Source: Meghimatium bilineatum
Taxonomy: Eukaryota; Mollusca; Gastropoda; Stylommatophora; Philomycidae
Assembly (NCBI GenBank): GCA_034231615.1
Contig: CM067322.1
Coordinates: 51,218,456 to 51,282,455 of the forward strand
DNA length: 64,000 nt
Reading direction: 5' to 3'
Positions 18,142-62,679 of the stretch are shown piece after piece. The translations under genes and the position numbers were made by a program. The notes under the pieces were generated by a model. The model saw only the letters and a program-made list of their open reading frames with translations, had not been told where the DNA came from and searched no databases. The number at the start of each line of letters is the position of its first letter. The stretch's first letter is position 1.

Positions 18142-18558
18142 ATGAAACACAATGTTTTGAGTGGAGCACAAAAGAGGAGGAAAGCTGCAGAGGAGATGGA
18201 AAAAATAAGGAAACTTCCAAAATTAACATCATGGCTCAACACAGGTGCAACGACAGGTACTCATACCATTCATTCAGAAATAGCTTTCACATCTACATAC
18301 ATTCCTGCTACCAATCAACCAGTTTCATCAGATATACCTCCTATGCCTGTTGCTGCTTCTAGTGACATTTTACAAGAGGAAACACCCAAATATGTATCTG
18401 TAGCAGTAAAGGAGTTTGCAATAAAAGAGACAGATCCGGGGCTATGGAACATTAATGACACTAACACAATAGATTACTGGATTCGTAGTGGGCCCTCATC
18501 ATGTCAGAACCATGATAGTAACTTTTCAAACTCACGCAGATTGTATAAAACAGCTTAG
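18142..18558 (+). CDS. hAT/ZMYM-type transposase, N-terminal part (frameshifted)
   Basis: 139 codons starting MKHNVLSGAQKRRKAAEEME and containing LPKLTSWL, then PGLWNINDTNTIDYWIRSGP and SNFSNSRRLYKTA before a stop. Such a SGAQ-RKK-PKL start followed by a P-W segment is usual for animal TTF-finger/hAT transposases. It shifts to the next frame in the overlap 18549-18556, close to the run AAAA at 18547-18550. One base of indel there would join it to the 688-codon frame. Confidence 0.8.
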   Translation: MKHNVLSGAQKRRKAAEEMEKIRKLPKLTSWLNTGATTGTHTIHSEIAFTSTYIPATNQPVSSDIPPMPVAASSDILQEETPKYVSVAVKEFAIKETDPGLWNINDTNTIDYWIRSGPSSCQNHDSNFSNSRRLYKTA

Positions 18559-18563
18559 AGAAT

Positions 18564-20630
18564 ATGACGGCAAATTATTTAACTGACAATGTGATCAAAC
18601 GTGAACTATGGAATGGAGAGTTTGTAAAACGTGAATGGATACTCTATTCACCATCCCAAGGTCGTTTGTATTGCTTTGCATGTCGCCTGTTGTCCAAGAA
18701 AGAATCTTCTTTTGCTACATCCGGGTTCAATGACTGGAAGCATAGCAATGTTATTTTAGAACATGAAAATGGAGAAGAACATAGAAAGTGCATGACGGAA
18801 TATTTGATAAGGCATAAAGAAACTGGAAGTGTAGATTCTTTATTACTTAAGCAACATCGCTCAGAGCAGGAATATTGGCATAAAGTGTTGACACGTTTGG
18901 TTTCTGTAATTCGTTTTCTTGCTTCCAGAGGTTTGCCATTTCATGGCGAAAATCAGATTATTGGATCAGCAAATAATGGTAACTATTTAGGTATACTAGA
19001 GCTACTGAGTGAATTTGATCCTTTCCTGGAGGAACATCTCAAAATGTATGGAAATCCTGGAAAAGGAAATACGTCATATTTATCTGCCAATATTTGTGAG
19101 GAATTTATTGATTTAATGGGACAACAGGTTCTTGGTACTATTCTTGAAGAAGTAAAAGAGTCAAAGTATTATTCAATGAGTGTAGATTCTACTCCAGACA
19201 TCTTACACATAGATCAACTGACATTTACTGTCCGATACATTAAAGGCTGCGAACCTGTGGAACGTTTCTTGATGTTTATCCCCATCTTTTCTCATGGATC
19301 AAAGGATTTAACAGACACTGTTGTGGATTTTCTTAAAGAGAACAAAATTCCACTATCAAACTGCCATGGCCAATCATACGATAATGCGTCAAATATGTCT
19401 GGACGATACACTGGATTGCAGGCACGTATTCATGAACTGAATGAGTTTGCCATCTATGTCCCCTGTGCAGGACACAGCCTGAATTTGGTGGGAGTAAAAT
19501 CTGCGGAGTGTTGTCTACAGTCTATAAAATTCTTTGACTTTGTTCAGCATCTGTATACATTTTTTGCTGGTTCTACTCATCGCTGGAATGTATTGACATC
19601 ATATTTAGAAAAAGATGTTGTGGTCAAGCGTCTGTCTGACACACGTTGGTCAGCACATTTTGATGCTGTTCATGCTTTGTGTAGGGGTTTCGATAAAATA
19701 AAACATGCACTGGATTCAATATCAGGTGACAATGAACAGCAAGTGACAACAAGGCGTGAGGCAGAAGGTTTGAGCAAAAAAATGGACCACCTTGAAACAA
19801 TATTTCTTACAATTCTTTGGAAGGGCATTCTAGAAAGGATGAATACAACAAGCAAAGTTTTACAATCAAAGGATGTGAACATCTTAGTTGCCACAAATCT
19901 TCTTGTGTCGCTGAAAAGCTATCTTCAGGAAACTAGAGACAAATTCACTGAATATGAATTCAAAGCCAGAAGTATGTGTCCAGATGCCGATTACAGTGAT
20001 GGAAAAAAACGGGAACGAACCCGAAGTGTGCGTATTAGTAGGTATGATAGGCCAGGAGAAGAGTTACTTCTAAATAAGTCCGAAAAGTTCAAGGTAGAAA
20101 CTTTCCTCCCTATTCTGGACACTTTAATCATTGAACTAACAAGACGTGCAGAGGCGTATTCACAAATTGGAAATCTGTTTTCTTTCTTGAGTGAATTAAA
20201 AACCATTACTTCTGATGCACTAAAGAAAAAATGCGAACATCTTGCCAATAGGTACCACAAGGACTTGAGTTATGACGACCTTTTAAATGAATGTGAGCAT
20301 CTCAAGCATTACATGGCTCTTGATGAAAATTGCGAGACTCTACCTGCAATGTGCAGAAAAATCATTTCGGACAATTTAAAATCTGTTTTTCCGAACATTG
20401 AAATTGCACTCAGAGTGTTCATGTGCATGATGGTGAGCAATTGTACAGGAGAACGTTCTTTTTCAAGACTTAAACTTATAAAAAATCAGCTTCGTAGTAC
20501 AATGGGACAGTATCGTTTGAACTGGCTATCACTCATGAGCATAGAAAATGACATCCTGAAGACCATTGACTTCAAGCCGATAATAAAACAATTTTCTGAA
20601 AAGAAATGTCGCAAACGCTTGTTAAAATAA
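18564..20630 (+). CDS. hAT/ZMYM1-like transposase, main frame of 688 codons
   Basis: Domains in order: TTF-type zinc finger (about residues 10-75; YCFACRLLSKK with Cys pair and later WKHSNV and EEHRKC), a DUF4371-like RNase H fold with YYSMSVDSTPD (about 205) and SYDNASNMSG (about 272) carrying the presumed catalytic Asp residues, CAGHSLNLVG (about 305), LSDTRWSAH (about 360), and the hAT dimerisation motif CTGERSFSRLKLIKNQLRS (about 625). It is open across 2 kb. The only visible defect is the frameshift from the N-terminal part. The enzyme would cut and paste the element in the nucleus. ZMYM1-like or '52 kDa repressor'-like host proteins share this architecture, but the termini argue for a transposon. 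Confidence 0.88.
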   Translation: MTANYLTDNVIKRELWNGEFVKREWILYSPSQGRLYCFACRLLSKKESSFATSGFNDWKHSNVILEHENGEEHRKCMTEYLIRHKETGSVDSLLLKQHRSEQEYWHKVLTRLVSVIRFLASRGLPFHGENQIIGSANNGNYLGILELLSEFDPFLEEHLKMYGNPGKGNTSYLSANICEEFIDLMGQQVLGTILEEVKESKYYSMSVDSTPDILHIDQLTFTVRYIKGCEPVERFLMFIPIFSHGSKDLTDTVVDFLKENKIPLSNCHGQSYDNASNMSGRYTGLQARIHELNEFAIYVPCAGHSLNLVGVKSAECCLQSIKFFDFVQHLYTFFAGSTHRWNVLTSYLEKDVVVKRLSDTRWSAHFDAVHALCRGFDKIKHALDSISGDNEQQVTTRREAEGLSKKMDHLETIFLTILWKGILERMNTTSKVLQSKDVNILVATNLLVSLKSYLQETRDKFTEYEFKARSMCPDADYSDGKKRERTRSVRISRYDRPGEELLLNKSEKFKVETFLPILDTLIIELTRRAEAYSQIGNLFSFLSELKTITSDALKKKCEHLANRYHKDLSYDDLLNECEHLKHYMALDENCETLPAMCRKIISDNLKSVFPNIEIALRVFMCMMVSNCTGERSFSRLKLIKNQLRSTMGQYRLNWLSLMSIENDILKTIDFKPIIKQFSEKKCRKRLLK

Positions 20631-21895: not shown

Positions 21896-22123
21896 ATAAC
21901 CAAGGGAGACTATGTCTCCATCTCACCTGCAGACCCAACTCAGCCGTTCTACATTGCTCAAGTTCAGTACCTGTTTGAAGAAGGTGGCTGCAAGCAGGCA
22001 CATATCCACTGGTACTATAGAGGATGTGAAACTGTCTTAGGAGAGGCATCTGATCCTCTGGTGCTATATTTTGTCGACAAGTGCGATGACAATGAGCTTG
22101 TTGCAGTACACAGCAAAGTGCAG
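21896..22123 (+). CDS. DNMT1: DNMT1 exon: first half of BAH1
   Basis: 76 codons, acceptor TCTTTCACCAG, donor GTATGG. The peptide has ITKGDYVSISPADPTQPFYI, HIHWYYRGCETVLGE and DPLVLYFVDKCDDNEL, matching the BAH1 core of DNMT1 (the human protein has a GD-V--PSDPSQPLY-type segment and HW-----TVLG). No internal damage. The exon upstream of it is absent. Confidence 0.93.
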
Positions 22124-22199
22124 GTATGGTTTATTTTGTCTTGGCAACTGTAGGAATTAGGATTCAGTCTTCTCGTGTGTTCATTGTTTTTCAGCATTC

Positions 22200-22262
22200 A
22201 TTCGCAACCTCCTGCATGTTATAGCAACCTCCTGCATGTTAGAGCAACCTTCTGCATGTTAG
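22200..22262 (+). repeat. Three copies of a 21-bp unit
   Basis: caacctcctgcatgttatag is repeated three times with small changes, in the first DNMT1 intron of the window. Confidence 0.75.
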
Positions 22263-22399
22263 CAGAATATAGCCTGGAGAACAGAATATGTTGTGCATGA
22301 TTATCAGGTTGCAAAAGGGAAGTCTGTTCAAGGATGGGAACCCCTAGCACCAAATTACCATGCTTAAGTTACAAGTCTCATTCTTCTAGCTGCAAACTA

Positions 22400-22600
22400 G
22401 AATGGAATGTCCATTCTAAAATTTCTTCTATTTAGTAGTCTTGAGAATGGAATGCATTATGGTACAGTTTATAGTTCAGCTGCGATATCTGCACCTTTCA
22501 TTGTAACACATTTGACTTCATCTTGATTTTTGGGTCACCTTGACCTACCATGGGAAGAGAAGAGTTGAGATTGGATTGTGCCATTCTATACCTCAAAGAG
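22400..22600 (-). repeat. SINE-like repeat, family 2, partial
   Basis: Minus-strand reading shows the gggtcaa-gtgaccc-like centre and the segment before the tail, degraded. It sits directly before a family 1 copy in the same orientation. Confidence 0.55.
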
Positions 22601-22617
22601 ATCCAAAAACTGTGCTG

Positions 22618-22775
22618 AGGTCTTCTTCTTCAGAGTTCATTCTCAAACTCCCACTGGATCTCTCTTGTAGCAGGACAATGGTCCAACTAAATTTCCAACA
22701 GCATGTTGTCCAGAAAATGGAAATGCGTTGTCGTCATTTGCGCCAATGGTGCGACACATCCGTCTAATGTGGTAT
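22618..22775 (-). repeat. SINE-like repeat, family 1
   Basis: Plus-strand text 'cttcttcttcagagttcatt', 'ctctcttgtagcaggacaat' and 'gtcatttgcgccaatggtgc' is the reverse of family 1. Its 5' end touches the minisatellite that follows. Confidence 0.8.
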
Positions 22776-23373
22776 GCTGAGGTCTAATGTGCCAAGCTGT
22801 AAGCTATGCTGAGGTCTAATGTGTCAAACTGTAAGCTATGCTGAGGTCTAATGTGCCAAGCTGTAAGCTATGCTGAGGTCTAATGTGTCAAACTATAAGC
22901 TATGCCGAGGTCTAATGTGCCAAGCTTTAAGCTATGCCGAGGTCTAATATGTCAAACTATAAGCTATGCTGAGGTCTAATGTGCCAAGCTGTAAGCTATG
23001 CTGAGGTCTAATGTGTCAAACTGTAAGCAATGCTGAGGTCTAATGTGTCAAACTGTAAGCAATGCTGAGGTCTAATGTGCCAAGCTGTAAGCTATGCTGA
23101 GGTCTAATGTGCCAAGCTGTAAGCTATGCTGAGGTCTAATGTGCCAAGTGTAAGCTATGCCGAGGTCCAATGTGTCAAACTGTAAGCTATGCTGAGGTCT
23201 AATGTGCCAAGCTGTAAGCTATGCTGAGGTCTAATGTGTCAAACTGTAAGCTATGCCAAGGTCTAATGTGTCAAACTGTAAGCTATGCTGAGGTCTAATG
23301 TGCCAAGTGTAAGCTATGCCGAGGTCTAATGTGCCAAGCTGTAAGCTATGTCGAGGTCTAATGTGTCAAGCTG
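22762..23373 (+). repeat. 32-bp minisatellite, about 19 copies
   Basis: The unit is tgctgaggtctaatgtgycaarctgtaagcta. Two subtypes, with gccaagctg (a) or gtcaaactg (b), alternate strictly abababab at the left and then irregularly, so part of the array behaves as a 64-bp higher-order repeat. It lies in an intron of the DNMT1 fragment. The unit resembles the SINE block tgctgaagtcagatgtgtca-ggccgaaagg. Confidence 0.92.
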
Positions 23374-23470
23374 AAAGGACTGCATCCATGTAACCAAGAA
23401 GAGTGTGAAAACAATGAATAAACTTTGTTTTGGTTACTTTCTATAAAAATACATTATTCTTCTGTTCTAG

Positions 23471-23728
23471 GTCATCCAGAAAGTTGTTCCTGAAGACTAG
23501 AATATGAAAGGTGGCATTGACAACCCAGATGAAGACAATGTCATTTCTGAGGATGATGGCAAGACATTCTATTTTCAGAAGTTTTATGAACCCAATTTTG
23601 GCAGGTTTGAGGATCCTCCTGATATAGATGTTCTTTCGGACAGTGAGAACCAGAATTGCTGCATTAGCTGTCAGAGGTTGGAGAAGAAGAGATTGCTAGA
23701 GGAGATAGTCCTAGGGGAAGTTACTCGA
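23471..23728 (+). CDS. DNMT1: DNMT1 exon: second half of BAH1, with TAG stop
   Basis: 86 codons, acceptor TTCTGTTCTAG, donor GTAAGT. It begins VIQKVVPED, then TAG at 23498-23500, then NMKGGIDNP, DDGKTFYFQKFYEPNFGRFE and CCISCQRLEKKRLLEE. The stop stands where DNMT1 has a conserved Trp (the human sequence reads ENWAMEGG), so TGG to TAG is the simplest change. The frame after the stop is fully open. Confidence 0.9.
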
Positions 23729-23916
23729 GTAAGTAGTGGATAATTTGACCTTTTCCGACATTATAACAAAAAGTAAAGTTTAAAAATAAACTAAATGTAG
23801 ATTAGGCTCTATAAGCAAGCATTATTTGTTTATAATCTCATTATGATTTTAGTATTCTTGAATACATTTTTTTGAAAACTGTGGTTTAATACAGTTTACA
23901 AAATTGATTAGGAACT

Positions 23917-24074
23917 CCCGCCGAAGACGGATGTGTCGGGCCATTGGCGCAAATAAAACGGCGACACAACGCATTTCCATTTTCTGGACTACATCCTGCT
24001 GGAAATCTAGCAGGACCATGATCCAGCTAGATCCAGTTGGAGTTTGAGAATGAACGCAGAAGAAGAAGAAGATT
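23917..24074 (+). repeat. SINE-like repeat, family 1, well preserved
   Basis: Starts 'gccgaagacggatgtgtcgg', passes 'cattggcgcaaataaaacgg' and 'ctggactacatcctgctgga' and ends 'gagtttgagaatgaacgcag' plus (AAG)n. It is the best copy of family 1 in the window. Confidence 0.85.
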
Positions 24075-24149
24075 AGGAACCAACATCATGCATGTGGGGA
24101 CATTCCCATAAAGGCTTAGATTGCTGGTTCAATCATCAATGTACTTCTT

Positions 24150-24355
24150 TGTCAGCGTTCATTCTCAAACTCCCGCTGGTTCTCTCCTCTAGCAGGACCA
24201 TGGCTCTATTAGATTTCCAGCAGGATGTAGTCCAGAGAATGGTAATGCGCTTTGTTACCGTTTTATTTGTATCACAAGTAAATTCAAGTAGAAAATTCAA
24301 TTCCCATCAACTTTAAGAATTATTTGCGTCAGTAACCTGACACATCCATCTTCAG
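24150..24355 (-). repeat. SINE-like repeat, family 1, inverted
   Basis: Plus-strand text 'cagcgttcattctcaaactc', 'ctctagcaggaccatggctc' and 'ctgacacatccatcttcagc' is the reverse of the 23.9-kb copy, so the two form a large inverted pair about 75 bp apart. Confidence 0.8.
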
Positions 24356-24489
24356 CGGGATCATCCATCTAAGGGTGTATATGCTGCGTACCAGTCAGTT
24401 TGTTGTTGTCAGCGAGGATGTACTATCTTCCCTCTCCCTTTGTCACTCCCGTTTCTATTATTCTATGGGAGCATGAACAGTCTCTTTGT

Positions 24490-24740
24490 GTCTAATCACT
24501 CATTGTCTAACATTGTTAAAGATTACTCCTGTGGTTCACCTAGCCACCAGGAAATAGGGTACCAGGACTAATGCTCTGGGGAGATCGAGAAATGGCACCA
24601 TCGCTACTGAGCAAGTGTGGTAGGTGATGCTAGTCAGGTGGTTTCTGATCAACCAATGATTAGCCTGCTGAGCACTTATGGGAAGCCCCGTCCTATGTTG
24701 CTGGTTCATAACTCATGTTACTTTTACGTTTACTTTAGGT
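24490..24740 (+). repeat. Dispersed repeat, same family as 33545-33860
   Basis: Blocks 'ccaggaaatagggtaccagg', 'gagaaatggcaccatcgcta' and 'gcacttatgggaagccccgt' match blocks at 33670, 33710 and 33795. In the other copy a tRNA-like head precedes this body. Confidence 0.7.
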
Positions 24741-24744
24741 TGCA

Positions 24745-25660
24745 GTTTTAAATCTGACTATGACATGTTCTTTACAAAGTGAATTTTTATCAAAGATTAC
24801 TGGTGATTAGCATTTGAGCTACAGAGTTAAGTGCTATGAATGGTACTGTCTACAGATGGTGTTCTACTTCGGTGAACGAAATGACTGAAAGTATATTTAT
24901 TCAGCAGAAATCGGATAATGGCAACACATTTGTTGAAAGGAATGGAGGGAAATGTACTGGGAAACCAGTACAAAGGGCTTATCATTGCTCTCATGCAGAC
25001 CTAGGGGTAACAGATAACCAAAATATGGATTAGAAAGTCATCACATGTAGACGAGGCAAGTGTGTGAGAAATTAACAGGCAAATCCCAGATTATGAAGTT
25101 TTTTGGCAAAGTAGCACCTTGTCTAGGAAGGTATATCAACCCTGAGTCAATTCAACTGTCACATTGTCCAACACGACTCAAACAGAAATCTAGGTCTATG
25201 CCTAAGGACACAAAGGGAGGTAATGGAATGGTCTTCCTACACAAGGGATAACTCGCTGGTTGCGAAGTGCCTAGTCAGAAGAAAGATGCATGTTGGGTGA
25301 CCCAGGCAAATTATCAGCTCGTCTAGTGACATTTACCCCTCAAGGCTCCTTCAATAGGCACTTGTATTAAGCCGAAAGCTTAAGTCTCCTGGGTATGAAA
25401 GATAGCTAAAAAACCACCCCACTGCACATAGGAAGTGAGAGCTAATTGCTCGCAATTCCTGGGGTTATTGACAAACAAAACAAACAAACATAGGCAGAGT
25501 CAGGAGTGTGTTTATTCCGTGAGGGGTTAGAACCAGAAGCATACATACCCTAAGTCATTTGCCAGGGATACTGAGCACATGCATGCATTAAATGCGGAGA
25601 CGTCAGCTCATAACCAATTTTGCGTTGTTGACATCTTAGCATCTATTTTAATTATTCTGT
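24745..25660. other. DNMT1 intron sequence, origin unknown
   Basis: Fairly mixed base composition. A stretch near 25000-25025 (ggggtaacagataaccaaaa) resembles 43313-43340, hinting at an old shared repeat. No exon recognised. Confidence 0.35.
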
Positions 25661-25669
25661 TTGTTGCAG

Positions 25670-25825
25670 GCAGACGGTGGATCGTCCAGCTGTCTGTATT
25701 ACACAAGTGTCAGAACCAATGGTCTAGAATATTCTATAGGTGATTGTTGTTACATTGATCCGGCGGCGTATGGGTTCAAGATAGTACACGAGAAGATCTC
25801 AACTGCAAGAAAATCACAGTCCAAA
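25670..25825 (+). CDS. DNMT1: DNMT1 exon: linker and start of BAH2
   Basis: 52 codons, acceptor TTGTTGCAG, donor GTAAGT, phase 0 at both ends. It encodes LYYTSVRTNGLEYSIGDCCY and AAYGFKIVHEK, matching the segment that leads into DNMT1 BAH2. Intact. Confidence 0.92.
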
Positions 25826-26029
25826 GTAAGTCCAGCCATTTACTGGTAGATACAATAAATTGTTATTAACACTTTATCTCTGTAGGCCTCTTTATCTCTA
25901 ATACCAGCTATTTACACCCACTAACTGCTGATAAATCCTGCCTCTAATATCAGCTATTTGGACCCACATTACATTCTTAATTTTAGTGACTTTGAAAAGG
26001 GAGTTGTCAGTGCATAGCCAGGGTCTGAG

Positions 26030-26165
26030 AACGGAGCAAAGAATAGCTACACTGTTGCTTGCCAAGCATGTTATAACAGGTAACTAAGGAAGTTTTGAGG
26101 TAAAGTTGGCTATCCCATATAAGGTCAAAGTGACCCAGAAGCCATGTATCAGGCAGAAAGTGTTT
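26030..26165 (+). repeat. SINE-like repeat, family 2, 5' part
   Basis: Contains 'ggagcaaagaatagctacac', 'ggtaactaaggaagttttga' and 'aaggtcaaagtgacccagaa', the front and middle of family 2, without a tail. Confidence 0.65.
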
Positions 26166-26169
26166 TCCT

Positions 26170-26385
26170 TATTCTTCTACATATCTACATCTCAAAGACA
26201 TTAATTCTGTCTTCTAATTGTTCATTGTCCATGTTTTTGAGCCATACATTATTATAGAATAGATGTAACACTTTATAATTCTCATTTTTAGCTTGTTTGT
26301 AATTTGTTTAGATGTTAATATTTTCCTCATCTCATTGAAATCACTTTTCTGCATATTAAGCACATTTTAAAAATTGCAACTTTGA
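26170..26385 (-). pseudogene. RTE-like LINE fragment
   Basis: Closely similar to 15300-15500 (for example 'ttatagaatagatgtaacac' against 'taatatagaatagatgtagc', and 'cttgtttgtaatttgtttag' in both), so it is a second piece of the same LINE family. It lies just upstream of the BAH2 exon. Confidence 0.7.
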
Positions 26386-26462
26386 TGAAATATGGTTTTA
26401 TTTTCTGAAATTGTTTCAAATTTTTTGAAATATGGATTTATTTTCTGAAATTGTTGATGCAG

Positions 26463-26631
26463 GTTGATGAAGATGTTTACCCAGAGGCCTATCGGAATAC
26501 GTGAAAGGGTCAAATGACAAGTGCCCGGAACCTTTTCGTGTTTCCAGGATTATGGAAATCTTTACCAAAAAAGTCTCAGGAAAACTACCTGAACTTTCTG
26601 AGGTCAAGGTGAAGGTCAATAAGTTTTACAG
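26463..26631 (+). CDS. DNMT1: DNMT1 exon: BAH2, with 1-base deletion
   Basis: Acceptor TTGATGCAG, donor GTCAGT. It starts VDEDVYPEAYR, then the frame breaks at about 26496 (cggaatacg where cgg-aaa-tac-gtg is expected). In the next frame it continues KGSNDKCPEPFRVSRIMEIF to VKVKVNKFYR. At 169 nt it is one short of the 170 that the flanking phases require, so a single A was lost, in the genome or in the assembly. Confidence 0.9.
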
Positions 26632-26689
26632 GTCAGTTTTTTTATGTGGTGTTATTTATATGAGAATTTATATGGCAAATAAATAAACA

Positions 26690-27030
26690 GGATAGTGGCA
26701 ACATTGGAGACAACAGAGAATATGGAATGCCGAGAGTAATTTGGACAGCTAGAAAAACTAACGAGGATGTTCTAAATGTGAGATTAGGGTTTATTTAATA
26801 ATAGAAAAAGACAATATTTGTTTATTGTGGTCACATTATGAGACAGGGAGGTCTGGAGAAGAGTAACAACAGGCATGATAGAAGGTCGGATAGATTGACA
26901 GAGAAAATATTCATTTGACATCGTGGAGTGGCAAAAAAACAACTACTATCCTGATAAGTTATACTGAATATAAACAGTTGTGGAGATCTGTGATCACCTA
27001 CGTCAGTCTGCATGACACTTGATGATGATA
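26690..27030 (+). pseudogene. LINE 3'-terminal coding fragment
   Basis: Broken text reads WTARKTNEDVLNVR, then KKTIFVYCGHIMRQGGLEKS and NNRHDRR, the usual end of endonuclease-reverse transcriptase LINEs (cf. GHIMR-----EK-I--G---G-R-RGR). It stops in a TGATGATGA-like tail. Confidence 0.6.
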
Positions 27031-27194
27031 TGACACAGGATCACATGTAGGTCTCCGGTGTCCTACCAGACAAAAATTCCATCCAATAACAAACCACTAA
27101 TAGAGAGATTTTCTTCTTGTGAAAAGAACACACTGGTTTCTTTTTAACAAAGCAAGTCCTAAACTGGAACCAGTTTATGCTTACTCACTTCTGA

Positions 27195-27400
27195 CTTAGA
27201 GTAAACAACTAAGAGTGGGTGTTTTTTTTGACTGAATAGATCCTTCAGGTAGCAACTTTACACATAATTATAAAAATGGGTATTTTTTTTTACTGAATAG
27301 ATCCTACACAGACCTGGTAGCAACTTTACTCATAATTATAAGAGTGGGTGTTTTTTTTTGACTGAATAGATCCTTAGGTAGAAATTATACACATAATATT
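27195..27400 (+). repeat. Three diverged tandem copies of a unit of about 80-90 bp
   Basis: 'gtgggtgttttttttgactg' plus 'aatagatcct', then 'gtagcaactttacacataat', occur three times before the last BAH2 exon. Confidence 0.7.
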
Positions 27401-27478
27401 ATAAGAATGTTTATAGGGAAATTCATCACTATATTTCTGTTTAACTTTCTAATAAATGTGTAATCATTTGTTCCTCAG

Positions 27479-27740
27479 AATTGAGAACACACATAAGGGG
27501 TCACATTCTGTCTATCACACCGACCTCAATGCCTTGTTTTGGAGTGATGAGGAGACCACTCTGGGTTTCTCGCATATCCGTGGAAAATGTACAGTTGTTT
27601 AGAGAGAGAACTTGACAGATGTTGACAGTTACTTCATTGGAGGGACTGACCGCTTCTATTTTGCGGAGTCTTACAGTGCAGACACTCGGCAATTTGATGA
27701 CCCTCCAGCAAAGGCTCAGCTCATGGGCAATACTGGGAAG
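27479..27740 (+). CDS. DNMT1: DNMT1 exon: end of BAH2, with TAG stop
   Basis: 262 nt, acceptor TTCCTCAG, donor GTGAGA. It encodes ENTHKGSHSVYHTDLNALFW, then GKCTVV, TAG at 27600-27602, then RENLTDVDSYFIGGTDRFYF and FDDPPAKAQLMGNTGK. DNMT1 proteins usually have an aromatic residue (Tyr in human) at the stop position. The frame is open on both sides of the stop. Confidence 0.9.
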
Positions 27741-27794
27741 GTGAGATGCTCTAAAATTCTTCATATTAAATTAAATTTTGTCAGATTTTATCTT

Positions 27795-28075
27795 TCATAT
27801 CTTCTTCTGTGTTCGTTCTCAAACTCCTTCAGGTCAGCAGGCTGTAATCTGGAGAACGGAGTGTGTTGCATCATGGTTTAGAGCTCAGCTGCGATATTTG
27901 TACCTTTTGGTCTGGCACATCCAATTTCAGCATGGTTTTTGGGTCACTTTAACCCCATATGGGATGGGACAACCAACTCCCAAAAGCTCCAACGTCGCCT
28001 CTTACTCATAACAGAAAAAATATTGCTATTCTTTGCTCCCCTTTCAGACCTTGGCAACATGCGGGTAAAATATTT
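27795..28075 (-). repeat. SINE-like repeat, family 2, nearly full length
   Basis: Plus-strand text from 'cttcttctgtgttcgttctc' through 'cagcaggctgtaatctggag' and 'gggtcactttaaccccatat' to 'ctttgctcccctttcagacc' is the reverse of family 2. Confidence 0.8.
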
Positions 28076-28385
28076 CAATTGGCTTATTTTTATTTATACT
28101 GCTTGTTAACCCTGGATTACTACAGTCCATGTGTTTCTATTTTGTCAGATTACTTCTGACATCTTGTGAATCTTACTAACTCCAGAAACAGAAGACCTAG
28201 TGCTGATATGAGAACATTTTTTTATAAACCCGGGGATGTTTACAGAACAGATTCTACATATGTACAAACTGCAGCAAAACTGAAATCCAGAAAGGAAAAA
28301 AAACTTGGAACAGGGCAATGAAGTTTTGTTAGTAACACACATAAGTTAGTTACACAATGACTAGTAACACACATAAATCAACATG

Positions 28386-28700
28386 TAATTCAATGATTGG
28401 ATCTTTGGTAATTCAATGATTGGATCTTTGGTAATTCAATGACTGGATCTGTGGTAATTCAATGATTTGATTTGTGGTCATTCAATGATTGGATCTGTGG
28501 TAATTCAATGATTGGATCTGTGGTAATTCACTGATTGGATCGGTGGTCATTCAATGATTGGATCTGTGGTAATTCAATGATCGGATCACTGGTAATTCAA
28601 TGATTGGATCAGTGGTAATTCAATGTTTGGATCAGTGGTAATTCAATGATTGGATCAGTGATAATTCAATGATTGGATCAGTGGTAATTCACTGAATGGA
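28386..28700 (+). repeat. 23-bp minisatellite, about 14 copies
   Basis: The unit is ggtaattcaatgattggatct, followed by tt or gt. Variants include one-base substitutions. A family 2 SINE follows after 30 bp. Confidence 0.9.
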
Positions 28701-28732
28701 AAGATTGGAGAAGTGGTGCTCCTGTGTGTTCC

Positions 28733-28990
28733 TGGGCCCAAAAGGGGAGCAAAGAATAGTAACACTATTTATCTTCCATGCATGTCATAAGACAACTAAG
28801 GAAGTTATGGAGTGGATTTGACTGTCCTATACTACATAGGGTCAAAGTAACCCAGAAACCATACTCAAGCCGGTGTGTCAGGTCGAAAGGTGCAGATATT
28901 TGCAGCAAAAATGTAAATCATGACACAAAACTTTGTTCTCAGGATTGCACCCTGCTAATCTGCAGGAGTTTGAGAATGAACGCAGAAGAG
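28733..28990 (+). repeat. SINE-like repeat, family 2
   Basis: Runs from 'gggcccaaaaggggagcaaa' through 'gggtcaaagtaacccagaaa' and 'gtcaggtcgaaaggtgcaga' to 'gagtttgagaatgaacgcag' and AAGAG. A second tail fragment follows at 29100-29175. Confidence 0.8.
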
Positions 28991-29283
28991 CAGTGGTAAT
29001 TCAGTGATTGAAAAGATTTGATTACCTATTAGCGAAAGAAAGGATGAGAGCAGAAATGCCAGTCTCCAGCTGATAACCAAACTCAACTAATCGTCATAAG
29101 CTGCAAAACATAATACAACGTTCTTCAATCTCCGGACTACATCCTGCTAATCTGTGGGAGCTTGGAAACGAATGCAAAAGACTACTCGTCATCAAGATTA
29201 AGAAAGATATTGTCATAATTTCTCATGGTCGCAATAAGCAAACATAGTTATTGTTAACATTATTCTCTTTTCTTCTATTGTAG

Positions 29284-29410
29284 GGTAAGGGTAAAGGAAA
29301 AGGCAAGGGCAAAGGAAAGTCTAGTAAAGATGAGTTAGAACAGGAGAATGCTGTGAAACATTTTTCAGTACATCAGCTGCGAACACTGGATGTCTTTGCT
29401 GGGTGTGGAG
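29284..29410 (+). CDS. DNMT1: DNMT1 exon: Gly-Lys linker and methyltransferase motif I
   Basis: Acceptor TTCTATTGTAG, donor GTACGTG. It encodes six GK pairs, then SSKDELEQENAVKHFSVHQL and RTLDVFAGCGG, which is motif I of cytosine-5 methyltransferases and binds S-adenosylmethionine. It ends in phase 1. The next DNMT1 exon (LSEGF-type sequence) is not found; a minisatellite starts about 50 bp downstream. Confidence 0.93.
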
Positions 29411-29458
29411 GTACGTGTCTCACGTTTTCAAACATATTCATTACTTTCATATCGCAAT

Positions 29459-30540
29459 ATATGTCAACACGTAGTCTTACATCAGTCACAATATCATATG
29501 TCAACACAGTCTTCCAACAATCACAATATCATATGTCTGCACAGTCTTCCAACAATCACAATATCATATGTCAGCACACAGTCTTCCATCAATCACAATA
29601 TCATATGTCAGCACGTAGTCTTACATCAGTCACAATATCATATGTCAACACAGTCTTCCAACAATCACAATATCATATGTCTGCACATAGTCTTCCAACA
29701 ATCACAATATCATATGTCTGCACGTAGTCTTCCATCAATCATAATGTCATATGTCTGCACGTAGTCTTCCATCAATCACAATGTCATATGTCTGCACATA
29801 GTCTTCCAACAATCACAATATCATATGTCTGCACGTAGTCTTCCATCAATCACAATATCATATGTCTGCACGTAGTCTTCCAACAATCACAATATCATAT
29901 GTCTGCACATAGTCTTCCAACAATCACAATATCATATGTCTGCACATAGTCTTCCAACAATCACAATATCATATGTCTGCACGTAGTCTTCCAACAATCA
30001 CAATATCATATGTCTGCACATAGTCTTCCAACAATCACAATATCATATGTCTGCACATAGTCTTCCAACAATCACAATATCATATGTCTGCACATAGTCT
30101 TCCAACAATCACAATATCATATGTCAACACGTAGTCTTCCATCAATCACAATGTCATATGTCAACACATAGTCTTCCAACAATCACAATATCATATGTCT
30201 GCACGTAGTCTTCCAACAATCACAATATCATATGTCTGCACGTAGTCTTCCATCAATCACAATATCATATGTCTGCACATAGTCTTCCATCAATCACAAT
30301 ATCATATGTCAACACATAGTCTTCCATCAATCACAATGTCATATGTCAACACGTAGTCTTCCATCAATCACATATATGTCAACACGTAGTCTTCCATCAA
30401 TCACAATATCATATGTCAACACGTAGTCTTCCATCAATCACAATATCATATGTCAACACGTAGTCTTCCATGAATCACAATATCATATGTCAACGCGTAG
30501 TCTTCCATCAATCACAATATAATATGTCAGCATGTAGTCC
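29459..30540 (+). repeat. 37-bp minisatellite, about 29 copies, at the DNMT1/cathepsin D junction
   Basis: The unit begins gtcttccaacaatcacaata and ends tcatatgtctgcacata. The main variants are ccatc/ccaac and gtctgc/gtcaac. The array fills most of the space between the last DNMT1 exon and the first cathepsin D exon. It is open in two frames by chance because the unit lacks stops in them. Confidence 0.95.
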
Positions 30541-30734
30541 TCCAGCAGTTTCTACCTTTGGAGATGCAGACGAGTGTGGAAAGATCTTGATTTTAGGATG
30601 GGGTTGTTTTTTGGGGTATTTTTTTAGATGGATTTATTATGGTTTTGCGTTATGATTAGGCTGTATTAGTTGTAGAATAAACTATTTGGGTTATGGTTAG
30701 TATACTTTATTTCTCTGTAACCGTACTGCTAGTA

Positions 30735-30772
30735 GCGCTGCCACGAGAGAGAGAGAGAGAAAGACAGAGAGA
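30735..30772 (+). repeat. GA-rich microsatellite
   Basis: A gagagagagagagaaagacagagaga run. Confidence 0.9.
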
Positions 30773-30986
30773 TCTGGTTCCCAAGTCACCAACCTCAAAG
30801 CTAACCAAAATCACACTTGCTGGACATTTTTGTCATTATCAACATAGCCACAGACTTTCCTTTTATAAAATTGGGTCCAGACACAAAAAAGTTGAGAATC
30901 TGTGCTTAGATGTGGTGTACACAGTTTAAAATATTGAGAAACCCTGATGTTCCATATAATTCCATTTGTTTTGTTTGTTTTCTCAG

Positions 30987-31125
30987 TTTCACTGTTAGTA
31001 CTACAACATATTGCAATGGAGGCTGCAGGGCCATAGCTGATACTGGCACCTCGTTGCTCGCTGGACCCAGCAGTGAGATAGAAAAGTTGAATGCTCAGAT
31101 TGGAGCTATCAAGTTTGTAGGAGAG
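30987..31125 (+). CDS. CTSD: Cathepsin D exon with second catalytic Asp
   Basis: 139 nt, acceptor TTTTCTCAG, donor GTGGGT. It encodes [20 protein letters not shown] and [26 protein letters not shown] is the second active-site motif of pepsin-family proteases, and the paired Cys are those expected nearby. The exon starts in phase 2, incompatible with the phase-1 end of the DNMT1 motif I exon. Confidence 0.93.
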
Positions 31126-32212: not shown

Positions 32213-32336
32213 TGATGTGCATCACCATAGGAGTTTCATCTCTTTTATCAAATATGGAAGAGCATGTACGCTGATAGTTCCCATAACTCATTCACTGTAT
32301 ATCTTCCTCATTCTACTTCTCTGTCTATGAGTTGTT

Positions 32337-32600
32337 CGGTCCCAAAGGGGGGCAAAGAATAGTGACACTCTTTAACTTTTATGCATGTCATAAGAGGCGA
32401 CTCAGAAAGTTGTAGGGTGGAGTTGGCTGTCACATCCCATATAGGGTCAAAGTGACCCAAGCGCATACTGAAGTCAGATGTTTCATGTTGAAAGGCGTAG
32501 ACATCACAGCAAAGCTGTAAACCATGACACAATGCATTCCATTTGCCGGACTATAACCTGCTAATCTACAGGAATGTGAGAAATAATGCAGAAGAAGAAA
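32337..32600 (+). repeat. SINE-like repeat, family 2
   Basis: 'cggtcccaaaggggggcaaa', 'gtcataagaggcgactcaga', 'agggtcaaagtgacccaagc', 'catgttgaaaggcgtagaca' and a GCAGAAGAAGAAAA tail. Confidence 0.8.
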
Positions 32601-32724
32601 AAATCTTTACCCTTTACTGTAACCCCAAGCAATTTCGAACTCGTTCAATCTCTTAATAATAGTCTCTTCTCTCATGGTGTTCCAACCACCTGGACCTAGA
32701 CTTCTAGTTCAGAAAAAAATCACA

Positions 32725-33294: not shown

Positions 33295-33393
33295 TATCTG
33301 GTTGTGTGTGCTAACATTCCAAAAATGCCAAATGTGACCTTTACCATTGGAGGATAGGGATTTGTGCTTACACCTCAACAATATGTTCTCCAG
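33295..33393 (+). CDS. CTSD: Cathepsin D exon with TAG stop
   Basis: 33 codons, acceptor CATCCTGCAG, donor GTTAGT. It reads YLVVCANIPKMPNVTFTIGG, TAG at 33355-33357, GFVLTPQQYVLQ. Cathepsin D has the pattern P-(I/V)-F-I-GG-(K)-x-(F/Y)-L-x-x-x-Y-L, usually with Lys where the stop stands. It is intact apart from the stop. Confidence 0.9.
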
Positions 33394-33544: not shown

Positions 33545-33860
33545 TGCCCCTTGGAAACTGCAATAGTGTAGTGTTAAGTCATCTGCCCACCAACCAGCAC
33601 ACCTGGGTTTCAAGTCCATTTATCATTCATAGGATGAAACAAAATTTACTCTTATGGTTCCCTCAGAAACCAGGAAGTGAGGTACCAGGGCTCATGCTTT
33701 GGGAAGGTTGAGAAATTGTACCATTACTACTTAAAAAGTGTGGTAGGAGGTGCTAGTCAGGCGGTTTATGGTTAACCACAGACTAGGCATCTCAGTACTT
33801 ATGGGAAACTGTGCTATGATGCTGGCTCATAATTTACCTGTACCGTTACTTCTGCTCAAT
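33545..33860 (+). repeat. tRNA-derived SINE candidate, second copy at 24.5 kb
   Basis: A head with 'gtgtagtgttaagtcatctg' and 'ctgggtttcaagtccattta' looks like tRNA A and B boxes about 45 bases apart. The body 'aggaagtgaggtaccagggc', 'gagaaattgtaccattacta' and 'cagtacttatgggaaactgt' is shared with 24490-24740. Confidence 0.55.
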
Positions 33861-35840: not shown

Positions 35841-36140
35841 GTCACAACGATGGGGCAGACTGAGTGTCTCAGTGGTTTCATTGGCTTGGATGTGCCTGAA
35901 CCAGCTGGACCTTTATGGATCCTGGGAGATGTGTTTATTGGACCCTACTACACTGAATTTGATATGGGAAACAATCGCGTTGGATTTGCTCGTACTAAAG
36001 ATATCTCCACCAAGGCTAATGTTAAAACTCTTAAAGAGGCAGTCAATGAGAAACCCCGATGGTTTGGGATCCACGAGTCTGGAAAGAACACTTTCAAAAT
36101 GAAGGTTGATGTTGAGGAAGAAATAAATATTGTAAATTAA
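35841..36140 (+). CDS. CTSD: Cathepsin D last exon with 46-residue C-terminal extension
   Basis: Acceptor TCTTACTTCAG. It encodes [20 protein letters not shown], then [20 protein letters not shown] and [10 protein letters not shown], the canonical end of the family. It then stays open for 46 more residues ([32 protein letters not shown], ending EEEINIVN) before TAA at 36138-36140. The extension is charged, with no signal or membrane segment, and resembles nothing I know. It could be a real lineage-specific tail or read-through after loss of the normal stop codon. Confidence 0.92.
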
Positions 36141-37037: not shown

Positions 37038-37541
37038 TCAGAACACTCTTAAAGTATATGTTTGGCACTCTGTGCTGCCTGTCCACATGGCCGTGTTGCC
37101 AATCTTGAAATTTGTATACATGTGACTGCGGAGTCGGTTGTGTCCTGTTCTGAGACGTAGAATTATCACTTGTTCTGATCTGTTCATAATGTGATAGTCA
37201 TCTTGTGTTGGCGCTTGTGGCTTTCTTATTGACTTGATCATATTTTTTTTCTGATGGTAGGTGATTGGTATATCTGGTTGGTCTTCGGCAGCACCTTCCT
37301 TAGCCAGTTGGTCTGCTTTTTCATTTCCTGGTATTCCACAGTGAGAGGGTATCCACTGCATGGTTACCCTATACTGGTAAGACAATTCGCTAAGTAGTTT
37401 TTTCAAGTCTGTTAGTTTTCCAGACTGGAGAGCTTGAAGCACTGACCTTGCATCTGTCAGGAATACCACAGGCTGTAGGCCAGAGTTGGAGTTCAGCAGT
37501 TTTTTTAGCTGCCACACTAATTGCCTGGATTTCTGCATCAT
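37038..37541 (-). CDS. LINE RNase H C-terminal part
   Basis: Contains VVFLTDARSVLQALQSGKLT (second Asp motif) and QWIPSHCGIPGNEKADQLAK (third motif with His and Asp), followed by HNRLRSHMY. It completes the RNase H begun in the preceding frame. The stop follows EC-TYTLRVF. Confidence 0.85.
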   Translation of the reverse strand: MMQKSRQLVWQLKKLLNSNSGLQPVVFLTDARSVLQALQSGKLTDLKKLLSELSYQYRVTMQWIPSHCGIPGNEKADQLAKEGAAEDQPDIPITYHQKKNMIKSIRKPQAPTQDDYHIMNRSEQVIILRLRTGHNRLRSHMYTNFKIGNTAMWTGSTECQTYTLRVF

Positions 37542-38370
37542 AATTATTGCAGAAAATTCCCATTGGTGTTCTGATTGTATCTCTAGGCTTGTGTGGATAT
37601 TCTATATATACACCTGCACCTCCATTCCTCACTGCATTCTGTGCTGACCCATCTGTGTACACTCTGACCCATATATCTTGTGGATATTCCTCATCCATTC
37701 CTTTCACATGGGTCTGAATGTATATTGGCATTCCATGGCTTTCTCTCCACGGGGTTTGTTCTGGTACAGACCTTAAAGGGCTGTCAACTTCAGGTAGGTC
37801 TGTAAGTTGTCTACGGAGTCGTTTAGCTTGATGGATAAAGCTGCTCCTTTTCAGTCGACCCATTGCTAGATTTTGGAATCTTTCCTTCATTGGATGACTT
37901 GGCATACACTGCAACTTTTCTGCTTGAATTAGTACTTTTGTGTCTCTGTGTTCGCCAAGTGTTTGCATTCTTCCCATTTTCTGCATCTCTGCTATGGGTG
38001 TTGATTTCATTGCTCCCAACATTATTCTAAGTGCCTGGTTTTGCACTTTATCTAGATCTTGTAATGTGGTGTTTGATGCAGGACACCACGAAGCTGAACC
38101 ATATTCCAGGTGTGGTCTTATGCCTTGCTGGTAAACTTTACTGAGTATATTTCCACTGGCACCCCATGTGGTTCCACTTAGTTTTCTCAGGATAGCTAAC
38201 TTCCTCCTGGCTTTTGTTGTTGCTTTGTTTATGTGCTGCTTCCATGTCAGCTTATCATCAAAAGTAACTCCGAGGTATGTGGGTTGTTTTCTTCTTTCAA
38301 GAGCTCTCCATCTATCTTGATATGACCAGCTTTTTGTTTTGGTGAGAGGGTAAAGAGTGTAGTGCTGCAC
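37390..38370 (-). CDS. LINE connector and start of RNase H, 326 codons
   Basis: Open for 326 codons. It contains YLGVTFDDKLTWKQHINKAT, RPHLEYGSASWCPASNTTLQ and DKVQNQALRIMLGAMKSTPI of the RT thumb/connector, then VRVYTDGSAQNAVRNGGAGV, the first Asp-containing motif of RNase H. The rest of the RNase H shifts to another frame. Confidence 0.82.
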   Translation of the reverse strand: MQHYTLYPLTKTKSWSYQDRWRALERRKQPTYLGVTFDDKLTWKQHINKATTKARRKLAILRKLSGTTWGASGNILSKVYQQGIRPHLEYGSASWCPASNTTLQDLDKVQNQALRIMLGAMKSTPIAEMQKMGRMQTLGEHRDTKVLIQAEKLQCMPSHPMKERFQNLAMGRLKRSSFIHQAKRLRRQLTDLPEVDSPLRSVPEQTPWRESHGMPIYIQTHVKGMDEEYPQDIWVRVYTDGSAQNAVRNGGAGVYIEYPHKPRDTIRTPMGIFCNNYDAEIQAISVAAKKTAELQLWPTACGIPDRCKVSASSSPVWKTNRLEKTT

Positions 38371-39175
38371 TTATCTGTGTTAATGCTGACGCACCATCTA
38401 TTTGCCCATAAGGTTATGGCATCGATAGCTCTTTGTATTTGTTTAGCGGCCACTGTTGCATGTTCTTCCGTGCACCAGATCACCAGGTCGTCAGCATACA
38501 TTGCCACTTTGATCCTGTGTGGTAGTTCAGCAACTAGGTCATTGATGTAAACCAAGAAAAGTGTGGGTGACAGGACTCCTCCCTGGGGGACTCCATGACG
38601 CAGTAGAACTTTCTTGCTCTTGCGACCATCTAATTGTACCCTGGCTCTTCTATTATGCAGGTATGCTTTTACCCATTCTTGAGCTAACCCTGCAATTTCG
38701 CAATATCTTTAGGAGCCCTTCTTTCCAGACCGTATCAAATGCTTTCCTGAGGTCTATCCATGCTGCTAGTACCAGTTTCTTTTCTTGGAAGGCATCCTCA
38801 ATCTCTTGGGAGAGTTAGGTTGCCTGATCTTCAGTAGAGTAGCAGTGTCTGAAACCTGCTTGCTGTGATACCAGAAGGTTTTCACTTTCAAGGTACCACT
38901 GCATCCTAAGATTGATAATGCGTTCCATTGTTTTACATAGACAGCTTGTGAGGCTGATGGGCCTGTAGTTGGAGACTGTGTTGCCATCTTTTCCTGATTT
39001 GAGGTACATTACCTGTGGACCAGCTTGTGTTAAAGATCTGCAGTAGCTTTGCTCTTGCTGCAATTCCCAGGTTTCTAATCATTTCATTGGACACTCCATC
39101 AGCTCCAGGGGACTTTTTCATTTTCAATTTGGATATTGCATGCTCCAGTTCTCTCATTGTGATTGGTGCCTCCAT
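38247..39175 (-). pseudogene. LINE reverse transcriptase, frameshifted
   Basis: Assembled over several frames: SPGADGVSNEMIRNLGIAAR, VSNYRPISLTSCLCKTMERI, VSQQAGFRHCYSTEDQAT, AAWIDLRKAFDTVWKEGL (motif A Asp), LRHGVPQGGVLSPTLFLVYI (motif B) and VAMYADDLVIWCTEEHATVA (YADD active site). At least one stop (after STEDQAT) and several shifts break it. Confidence 0.85.
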
Positions 39176-39436
39176 GACTTCAGGTATAGGTTCGCCTTGT
39201 CCAATGTTTTGTTGGTTCTCTCGAACCTCCTGTTGTTTGTCTGGGCTGACTTTGACGTTATTGTCTTCTGCAAAGTGATCAGCTGCATGTTTACCTGTTA
39301 AAATGTTTCTATCTTTATAAAGTGTGATCCTGGTATTTCTCCCTGTACCTTCATCATTTAGTTGTTTTACAAGTTTCCATAATTTCCTAGTATCTCTTTC
39401 TAGGTTCAGCGACTCTGTTTTTTCTTTCCAGCTGCT

Positions 39437-40558
39437 TCATCTGGCTTGTAACTTGGCTCTTTGAAATTTAGCTTTTGTTTGCTGATATTTGTTATGATGT
39501 TCTTGGCTAGGTCTGTTCTCAGCCTGCTGTCTAGATGTTTCCATCTCATTTTGCAGCTTTTCCAGTTCATCATTCCAGTAGGGTTTGTAGTTTTTGCGTG
39601 CCCCCCTGGGTATGGTTTTACTAGCAGCATGTAGTATACATCTATTAAATTCACTGACTGCTCTATTGATGTCTTTGTCCAAGTTCATGTCCTTAGCTAG
39701 AACACTGGTTAAATACTGGTACATTTTCCAGTCTGCCCGTTTATAGTTCCACCTAGTGATCGTGCTGCTGTCCTTGGTAAATTCATTGTGGATTTCCAGA
39801 AATACTGGTCTGTGGTCACTACCTCCAAACTGCTTTCCAACGACACGTGTGATGTTCCATTCCAAGCCTGGTGAGTGGAATTCCAGGTCTGGTGTAGAGG
39901 TGGTGTGCCATGCTCTCGAGTAGAAGGTTGGTGAGTCTGCTGGCTGGTTAATAAGGATGAGATTATTTTCATCCTGCCAGCTCTCAAGTTCCTCACCTCT
40001 CTTGTCGATATGATCGTAGCCCCAGCTCTGAGAGTGGCTGTTGAAGTCACCACACACCATAAGTCTCTCTTTATCTGGAATTGTGTCTAGTGCCAATGGT
40101 TTATCATTTGGGCAGTAGTAGTTCAGGAGATGGAATTCTGCACTGTCTGTTTTTAGGTGGAGCATCTGGTATTCTGCCCCTTCCATATATACTTCCAGCT
40201 GACATGCGCTGATATTGTTTTTAACAAGTGTCAGAATTCCACCCTTTCGCCTGTCCTTTCTGTCAGACCGGTAGCACTGGTAGCCTCTGATTTTGAAGGC
40301 TATGTCGCTGCTGAGGTGTGTTTCTTGGATACAGCATATACTAACTTGTTCTGCACTGAGGACATTTTCAAGTTCCAATTTTTTGCTGTATCCATCTCTT
40401 TTACTGTTGACACCCTCAGCATTCCAGTGCATTATTTTTATTGGTCGTTTGTTTGTTTGGCCAGTAGCTCTATTCCCTTGCCTCCTGGCTCCTCGAGGCA
40501 ATTGAGAAGGACTTCCAGTAACTGAGGTTGGGCCCTTTCGAGGTATAGGGCCCGGCAC
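39437..40558 (-). CDS. LINE AP-type endonuclease ORF, 373 codons
   Basis: Apurinic-endonuclease fold motifs in order: IKIMHWNAEGVNSKRDG, ICCIQETHLSSD (catalytic Glu), RKGGILTLVKN, LLNYYCPNDKP, LMVCGDFNSHSQSWG, STPDLEF and FGGSDHRPVFLEI (catalytic Asp-His). All the diagnostic residues are present. The C-terminal end, KPYWNDELEKLQNEM, is the usual bridge into the RT. The frame is lost near 39440. It nicks target DNA to prime reverse transcription. Confidence 0.9.
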   Translation of the reverse strand: MPGPIPRKGPTSVTGSPSQLPRGARRQGNRATGQTNKRPIKIMHWNAEGVNSKRDGYSKKLELENVLSAEQVSICCIQETHLSSDIAFKIRGYQCYRSDRKDRRKGGILTLVKNNISACQLEVYMEGAEYQMLHLKTDSAEFHLLNYYCPNDKPLALDTIPDKERLMVCGDFNSHSQSWGYDHIDKRGEELESWQDENNLILINQPADSPTFYSRAWHTTSTPDLEFHSPGLEWNITRVVGKQFGGSDHRPVFLEIHNEFTKDSSTITRWNYKRADWKMYQYLTSVLAKDMNLDKDINRAVSEFNRCILHAASKTIPRGARKNYKPYWNDELEKLQNEMETSRQQAENRPSQEHHNKYQQTKAKFQRAKLQAR

Positions 40559-40800
40559 AGTCCCTGCCTGAACACATGGCAGGCACCATAACTATTTATA
40601 GATGTAGACATGTTTCCATTGTGTTTTGTGCGTGGCATCCTGATTATCTGTGCGCCTTTTGGCTAGATGTCTCCGTCTTCAGCACTCTGCTTACTTGGGC
40701 AGGACTATGGTCCTGCTCGAGTGGGACTGCCCGATCAGTCTTAGTTTCCAGCCCCTGATGGCTGAACTAAGCCCCATCACCTCTGCACGGTGCTGGTCTC

Positions 40801-62165: not shown

Positions 62166-62679
62166 AACTGTCAAATAGAAATAATATTTTAGCATGTAGG
62201 CCTAACCATTGTTCCTAGTACACACATAATCTAAACTGTTGATGGAGTAAGAAACATAGAGCTATCGGTAAATCCTTCCATCGAAACAATAAAGAATTGT
62301 ACTGCTAGTCTCCTGATGAAAGATGTGTATAAAAGTGCATCCGTGGGCTGGAGTGACAAGAAAATTGTTTATGTGATCACTGTAAACTATCTAATGCTGC
62401 ATTAAATCGTAAAATGTCAATAAGGGTCATCCCAAATTGTCTCTCTAAGCTGTTGTGGAAATATTCTGGTGCCTGTGGAATAAAAATTACAATACAACTG
62501 AGTTATCATCTGTTACATTATTGATATGTTGCTGGATGTGTCATTTACAAAACATTAGAATATCAGTCAAGTTGCACTCAAAATATGATCAGTAAAATAT
62601 AACTGCAGCAAAACTGTAATCTAACAGGCAAAACTTGGGAACATTATAATAAAGCTTTGCTAATCACTACTCCCCAAGA

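Follow-up and report, generated by a model that had tools for sequence, protein, structure and literature searches.

Probable unprocessed pseudogene fragments of DNMT1 and cathepsin D lie side by side in the Meghimatium bilineatum genome

A piece of DNMT1 and the end of cathepsin D follow one another on the forward strand of the window, i.e., the 64,000-nucleotide stretch of Meghimatium bilineatum contig CM067322.1 analyzed here. The explanation that accounts best for the locus, and which we consider probable, is that two truncated unprocessed pseudogene fragments were juxtaposed by an old partial duplication, rearrangement or deletion and subsequently decayed. The original prediction had described two genes cut by a rearrangement. 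Because disabling mutations are found in both pieces, these are better described as two pseudogene fragments. Three points go beyond that prediction: both pieces are broken, the upstream DNMT1 residues 351-759 are missing as well, and minisatellites are common in this region.

Two broken gene fragments on the same strand

A tblastn search with human DNMT1 revealed six collinear exons on the + strand at 21896-29410. They correspond to positions 410-800 of the 1266-residue query, whose first residue we take to be human residue 351, and cover the protein from the BAH1 domain through methyltransferase motif I. A search with human cathepsin D revealed three collinear exons corresponding to human residues ~281-407. 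Exon borders were placed by eye at AG/GT beside the alignment ends, with phases determined by hand, and the end of the last cathepsin D exon was placed where homology stops. The exons are as follows.

21896-22123, + strand: DNMT1 exon e1, BAH1 domain (tblastn E 2e-16, 48% identity to human; Pfam BAH 1.7e-17; AG/GT sites)
23471-23728, + strand: DNMT1 exon e2 (tblastn E 6e-10, 36%; reading frames; alignment)
25670-25825, + strand: DNMT1 exon e3, start of BAH2 (tblastn E 0.005, 36%, collinear; AG/GT sites)
26463-26631, + strand: DNMT1 exon e4 (two HSPs in differing frames, E 2e-12 jointly)
27479-27740, + strand: DNMT1 exon e5, BAH2 (tblastn E 3e-22, 48%; Pfam BAH 6e-12)
29284-29410, + strand: DNMT1 exon e6, KG repeat and motif I (RTLDVFAGCGG), the final DNMT1 exon present (tblastn E 3e-8, 55%; GT donor)
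30987-31125, + strand: cathepsin D exon c1, region of the second active-site Asp (ADTGTS) (tblastn E 7e-12 against the 9hk2 chain and 7e-8 against human)
33295-33393, + strand: cathepsin D exon c2 (tblastn E 3e-5, 36%)
35841-35998, + strand: cathepsin D exon c3, last coding part (tblastn E 4e-20, 71% to human; Pfam Asp)

These results bear out the prediction that the DNMT1 exon with motif I ends at 29410, with a GT donor behind it, and that the coding exon following it on this strand, at 30987, comes from the middle of cathepsin D. Identity of the exons to human ranges from 36 to 71% in tblastn, apart from one 11-residue piece at 82%. When the DNMT1 exons were joined, with X at the stops and the frameshift, the top PDB match was a DNMT1 chain (6x9i_A, E 1.8e-104). 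The cathepsin D exons matched cathepsin D best (E 9.4e-46), with cathepsin E (1.5e-40), pepsin and renin behind.

Four disabling mutations were found, all within aligned coding sequence: two TAG codons and one frameshift in the six DNMT1 exons, and one TAG in the three cathepsin D exons. The in-frame TAG at 23498-23500 in e2 stands where human DNMT1 has tryptophan (W), and that at 27600-27602 in e5 where it has tyrosine (Y). The frameshift lies at about 26483-26496 in e4, whose length is 1 mod 3 while the neighbouring phases, determined by hand, require 2 mod 3. In c2, the TAG at 33355-33357 replaces the lysine (K) that follows GG in human. Reassignment of the stop codon was considered and rejected, since the three TAGs face W, Y and K and the frameshift is separate, so that one reassigned codon is insufficient; RNA editing, judged from general background, was set aside on the same grounds. 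Two long open transposon frames in the window (693 and 407 codons) count against a high base-error rate, although this argument is weak because the frames were chosen for being long.

Within each gene, every junction from one exon to the next can be placed at AG/GT, and the phases agree everywhere but at the frameshifted e4; together, the two fragments keep seven introns, which are 637 to 2447 bp long. The fragments are thus not retrocopies but have a DNA-level origin. Three features by which unprocessed pseudogenes are recognized, homology to a coding gene, disabling mutations and retained introns, were found. With just four disabling mutations, the genes may also have been whole until recently.

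The two fragments could also be read as one chimeric gene that is spliced over the intervening repeat array and expressed as a DNMT1-cathepsin D fusion. They do lie on the same strand, with a GT donor at 29411 and an AG acceptor before 30987. However, the stops at 23498, 27600 and 33355 and the e4 frameshift break the spliced translation, and no exon was found upstream for human DNMT1 residues 351-759 (the query starts at 351). In addition, the donor of e6 is in phase 1 whereas the incoming phase of c1 is 2, both determined by hand, which leaves no open reading frame across the join; with the stops disregarded, the spliced product would therefore still be out of frame. We regard expression as a fusion as extremely unlikely, and the locus looks like an ordinary gene graveyard and not a new fused gene.

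Two features were observed beside the fragments. The cathepsin D frame stays open at 35999-36137 on the + strand, more than 40 codons beyond the usual C-terminus, which may reflect loss of the stop or a tail specific to the lineage. Just upstream of e1, a hAT-type transposase with a 693-codon open frame (DUF4371 and hAT dimerisation domain) occupies 18549-20627 on the + strand, and a further hAT C-terminal piece lies at ~17.4 kb.

The missing exons

No further DNMT1 or cathepsin D exon was found in the 64-kb window by tblastn on both strands with the human queries, that for DNMT1 starting at residue 351 and matches of at least 20.5 bits being counted. For DNMT1 query positions 1-409 or 801-1266, the best match in the window had an E value of 0.37 and proved to be a wrong-frame shadow of e5; the remainder had E values of at least 3.1. 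For cathepsin D residues 1-280, the best E value in the window was 1.6. Human DNMT1 residues 351-759 were not found by tblastn in the 21.9 kb upstream of e1. For the RFTS and CXXC domains, all tblastn matches upstream of 21.9 kb had E values of at least 5.4, and no Pfam match was obtained in three + frames of 7-22 kb and two + frames of 1-7.2 kb, both searches being bounded by the left end of the window.

No DNA_methylase, CXXC or DNMT1-RFD domain appeared either in Pfam scans, with stops read as X, of the + strand (7-64 kb in three frames, 1-7.2 kb in two) and of the - strand (21.6-36.4 kb in three frames); the remaining - strand was covered by tblastn only. The scans yielded BAH, aspartyl protease and transposon families, together with weak matches under the curated cut-offs. 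One of these, an MSL3_chromo-like match (E 0.002), was dismissed as chance; from its sequence, the stretch may be the RNase H tail of a retroelement. The prediction that no later methyltransferase exon follows, including within 29.4-30.98 kb, therefore held in the tblastn and Pfam searches of the window. Motifs IV-X of the methyltransferase domain, required for a functional DNMT1, were not found by tblastn in the window or by Pfam in the scanned frames. A functional cathepsin D requires both Asp-containing lobes, and only residues ~281-407 are present.

The sensitivity of the search is indicated by a spike-in control, in which the missing parts were placed in the window DNA as 50-aa exons at 35, 45 and 55% identity and recovery was defined as E<0.05. 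At these three levels, recovery was 73/90, 82/90 and 90/90 for the DNMT1 C-terminus, 60/80, 80/80 and 80/80 for the DNMT1 N-part (351-759), and 32/40, 40/40 and 40/40 for cathepsin D residues 65-280. Single exons could thus have been missed, but it is not likely that all of them were. The DNMT1 parts searched for are absent on either flank of the fragment, the left flank being bounded by the window end, and the 5' exons of DNMT1 could lie beyond that end, behind a long intron. Insertion of the cathepsin D piece into a DNMT1 intron, with DNMT1 resuming farther along, was rejected for this window, as tblastn on both strands and Pfam in three + frames detected none of its exons in 36-64 kb.

It is very unlikely that the fragment is the only DNMT1 of the species, i.e., a unitary pseudogene. 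If it were, a rearrangement that took away the catalytic domain would have cost a CpG-depleted and formerly methylated animal its maintenance methylation. The locus would gain this greater importance only if the genome has no other DNMT1. It also serves as a warning for annotation, since, from the broken exons, automated prediction could produce a DNMT1-cathepsin D fusion here or score DNMT1 as present.

The join interval and the 37-bp array

The break between the two same-strand fragments falls within a 1,576-bp interval, 29411-30986, which lies between exons and inside none. Most of it is taken up by a tandem array, in agreement with the predicted 1.1 kb or so of 37-bp repeats. This array and two minisatellites from ordinary introns that served as controls, all identified with TRF, are as follows.

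29459-30544, no strand: 37-bp minisatellite, 29.6 copies, 93% match (TRF and unit list)
22773-23377, no strand: 32-bp minisatellite, 19 copies, in the e1-e2 intron (control)
28385-28700, no strand: 23-bp minisatellite, 13.7 copies, in the e5-e6 intron (control)

The claim that two cut genes meet at the array was partly upheld: a join of partial genes is present, but its break falls outside the exons. The array ends 442 bp short of c1, and the break may also fall in that non-array sequence.

Tandem arrays are, in general, frequent sites of false assembly joins, and a contig with the DNMT1 pseudogene and one with the cathepsin D pseudogene might have been wrongly connected within or close to the 37-bp array. 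The absence here of the continuation of each gene is in line with such an artefact, as is the length of the array, the longest of 15 in the window. The arrangement of its units speaks on the other side. At the left end, units at 29459, 29496 and 29640 have AACAC after ATATGTC; so do those at 30119 and 30156 and a series that runs from 30304 toward the right end. Units with TGCAC occupy most of the middle. Off-length units are found at 29496, 29531 and 29640 (35 bp) and at 30341 (33 bp), and the last unit, partly past the TRF end, is the most divergent, with 11 differences. As judged by eye, the variants are thus interleaved along the array, and no change along it requires that two arrays were stitched together. 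Furthermore, a single false join leaves the missing upstream side of DNMT1 unexplained, within the limit set by the left end of the window, and the shorter arrays in the e1-e2 and e5-e6 introns (0.6 and 0.3 kb) leave the exon order intact. We therefore consider an assembly artefact unlikely.

Recombination inside the array, which would have cut both genes and made the array the cause of the join, appears more doubtful still. The array does sit in the break interval and is, at 1,086 bp, the longest in the window, the next being 605 and 585 bp. On the other hand, counting TRF loci with a period of at least 20 and about three or more copies, with overlapping rows merged, gave 15 tandem loci in 64 kb, i.e., 14 besides the 37-bp array. 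A random 1576-bp interval overlaps at least one of these 14 in 33.3% of cases (34.7% if the 37-bp array is included), and five of the seven ordinary introns of the two fragments hold at least one minisatellite. The presence of an array at the join is thus unremarkable. Intronic minisatellites commonly have units of tens of bp in tens of copies and lie in non-coding DNA; the 37-bp array is like them in unit, copy number and a match of ~93%, and its sole apparent difference is its place at the gene join. It is probably a bystander, although the fact that none of the other 14 is as long gives a causal role some plausibility. Both a rearrangement in the array and a misassembly, the alternatives offered by the original prediction, thus keep some probability, but nothing was found that links the break to the array.

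We also considered whether dispersed repeats had recombined at the join, and set this aside. A self-comparison (E up to 1e-4, at least 40 bases, array self-matches filtered), which detects only repeats with a second copy in the window, lists none inside 29411-30986.

Proposed origin, known parallels and genomic setting

In the favoured explanation of two decayed pseudogene fragments, an old partial duplication, rearrangement or deletion would have brought together the DNMT1 piece from BAH1 to motif I and the last three exons of cathepsin D, with the breakpoint in 29411-30986. Both pieces would have decayed afterwards, acquiring the stops and the frameshift, and the 37-bp array probably expanded in non-coding DNA like the 14 other arrays of the window. 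The sequence of events and the kind of rearrangement are our inference, as are a duplication origin and intact parental copies elsewhere.

Two published cases resemble this arrangement. In the opossum, a marsupial, the DNMT1 copy 1-psi lacks exons 1-16, 20 and 30-31, carries five stops and two frameshifts, and lies in tandem with two putatively functional DNMT1 copies (PMC5886458). It shares with the present fragment the character of a DNMT1 pseudogene with missing exon blocks, stops and one or more frameshifts; in contrast, the present window shows no intact DNMT1 copy, the 36-55% identity to human suggests an invertebrate sequence, and a cathepsin D fragment follows. HYDIN2 arose by incomplete segmental duplication with gene fusion, and is a transcribed gene that has fusion exons and reading frames (PMC5345166). 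There, as here, a partial gene duplicate stands against unrelated sequence at the breakpoint, but the frames of the present locus are broken and its phases mismatched. A full-text literature search for the phrase "DNMT1 pseudogene" returned no paper. By analogy with these cases, we regard the present locus as a further example of a known pattern, in which partial duplicates come to lie against unrelated sequence.

The window is AT-rich (GC 36.7%) and contains many transposable element remains and minisatellites. Self-comparison revealed dispersed repeats common to both sides of the join. A repeat of ~150 bp occurs at 22.6, 23.9, 32.1 and 35.6 kb, and the pair 24523-24711 and 33646-33832 spans the join. 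A SINE-sized repeat of ~270-290 bp, with copies 69-82% identical, was observed at 7491-7779, 27800-28080, 28721-28989 and 32325-32605; its 24-base core has six matches in the window at three or fewer mismatches and none in shuffled sequence. Exact DNA patterns taken from the 37-bp array and from a dispersed repeat gave no match in the viral_contigs and genome_contigs collections, in line with a eukaryotic source. The CpG observed/expected ratio is 0.34 both left and right of the join. The common repeats and equal ratios favour a single genome and argue against contamination from another species; they are also compatible with a false join inside one genome.

Outside the 37-bp array, the CpG ratio is 0.34-0.45 across the window, transposon-rich parts included. 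This low ratio suggests long-standing germline methylation beyond gene bodies. Several transposon remains were observed besides the hAT elements. A transposase in broken frames, presumably mariner-like, lies at 5903-6819 on the - strand, with Transposase_1 detected by Pfam in 5903-6433 and the rest assigned by eye. At 37041-40591 on the - strand, a fragmented non-LTR retrotransposon retains an endonuclease and an RNase H (Pfam), with pieces of reverse transcriptase between them (by eye). Near the window end, a reverse transcriptase frame is open for 407 codons at 62664-63884 on the + strand (RVT_1, E 5.5e-33).
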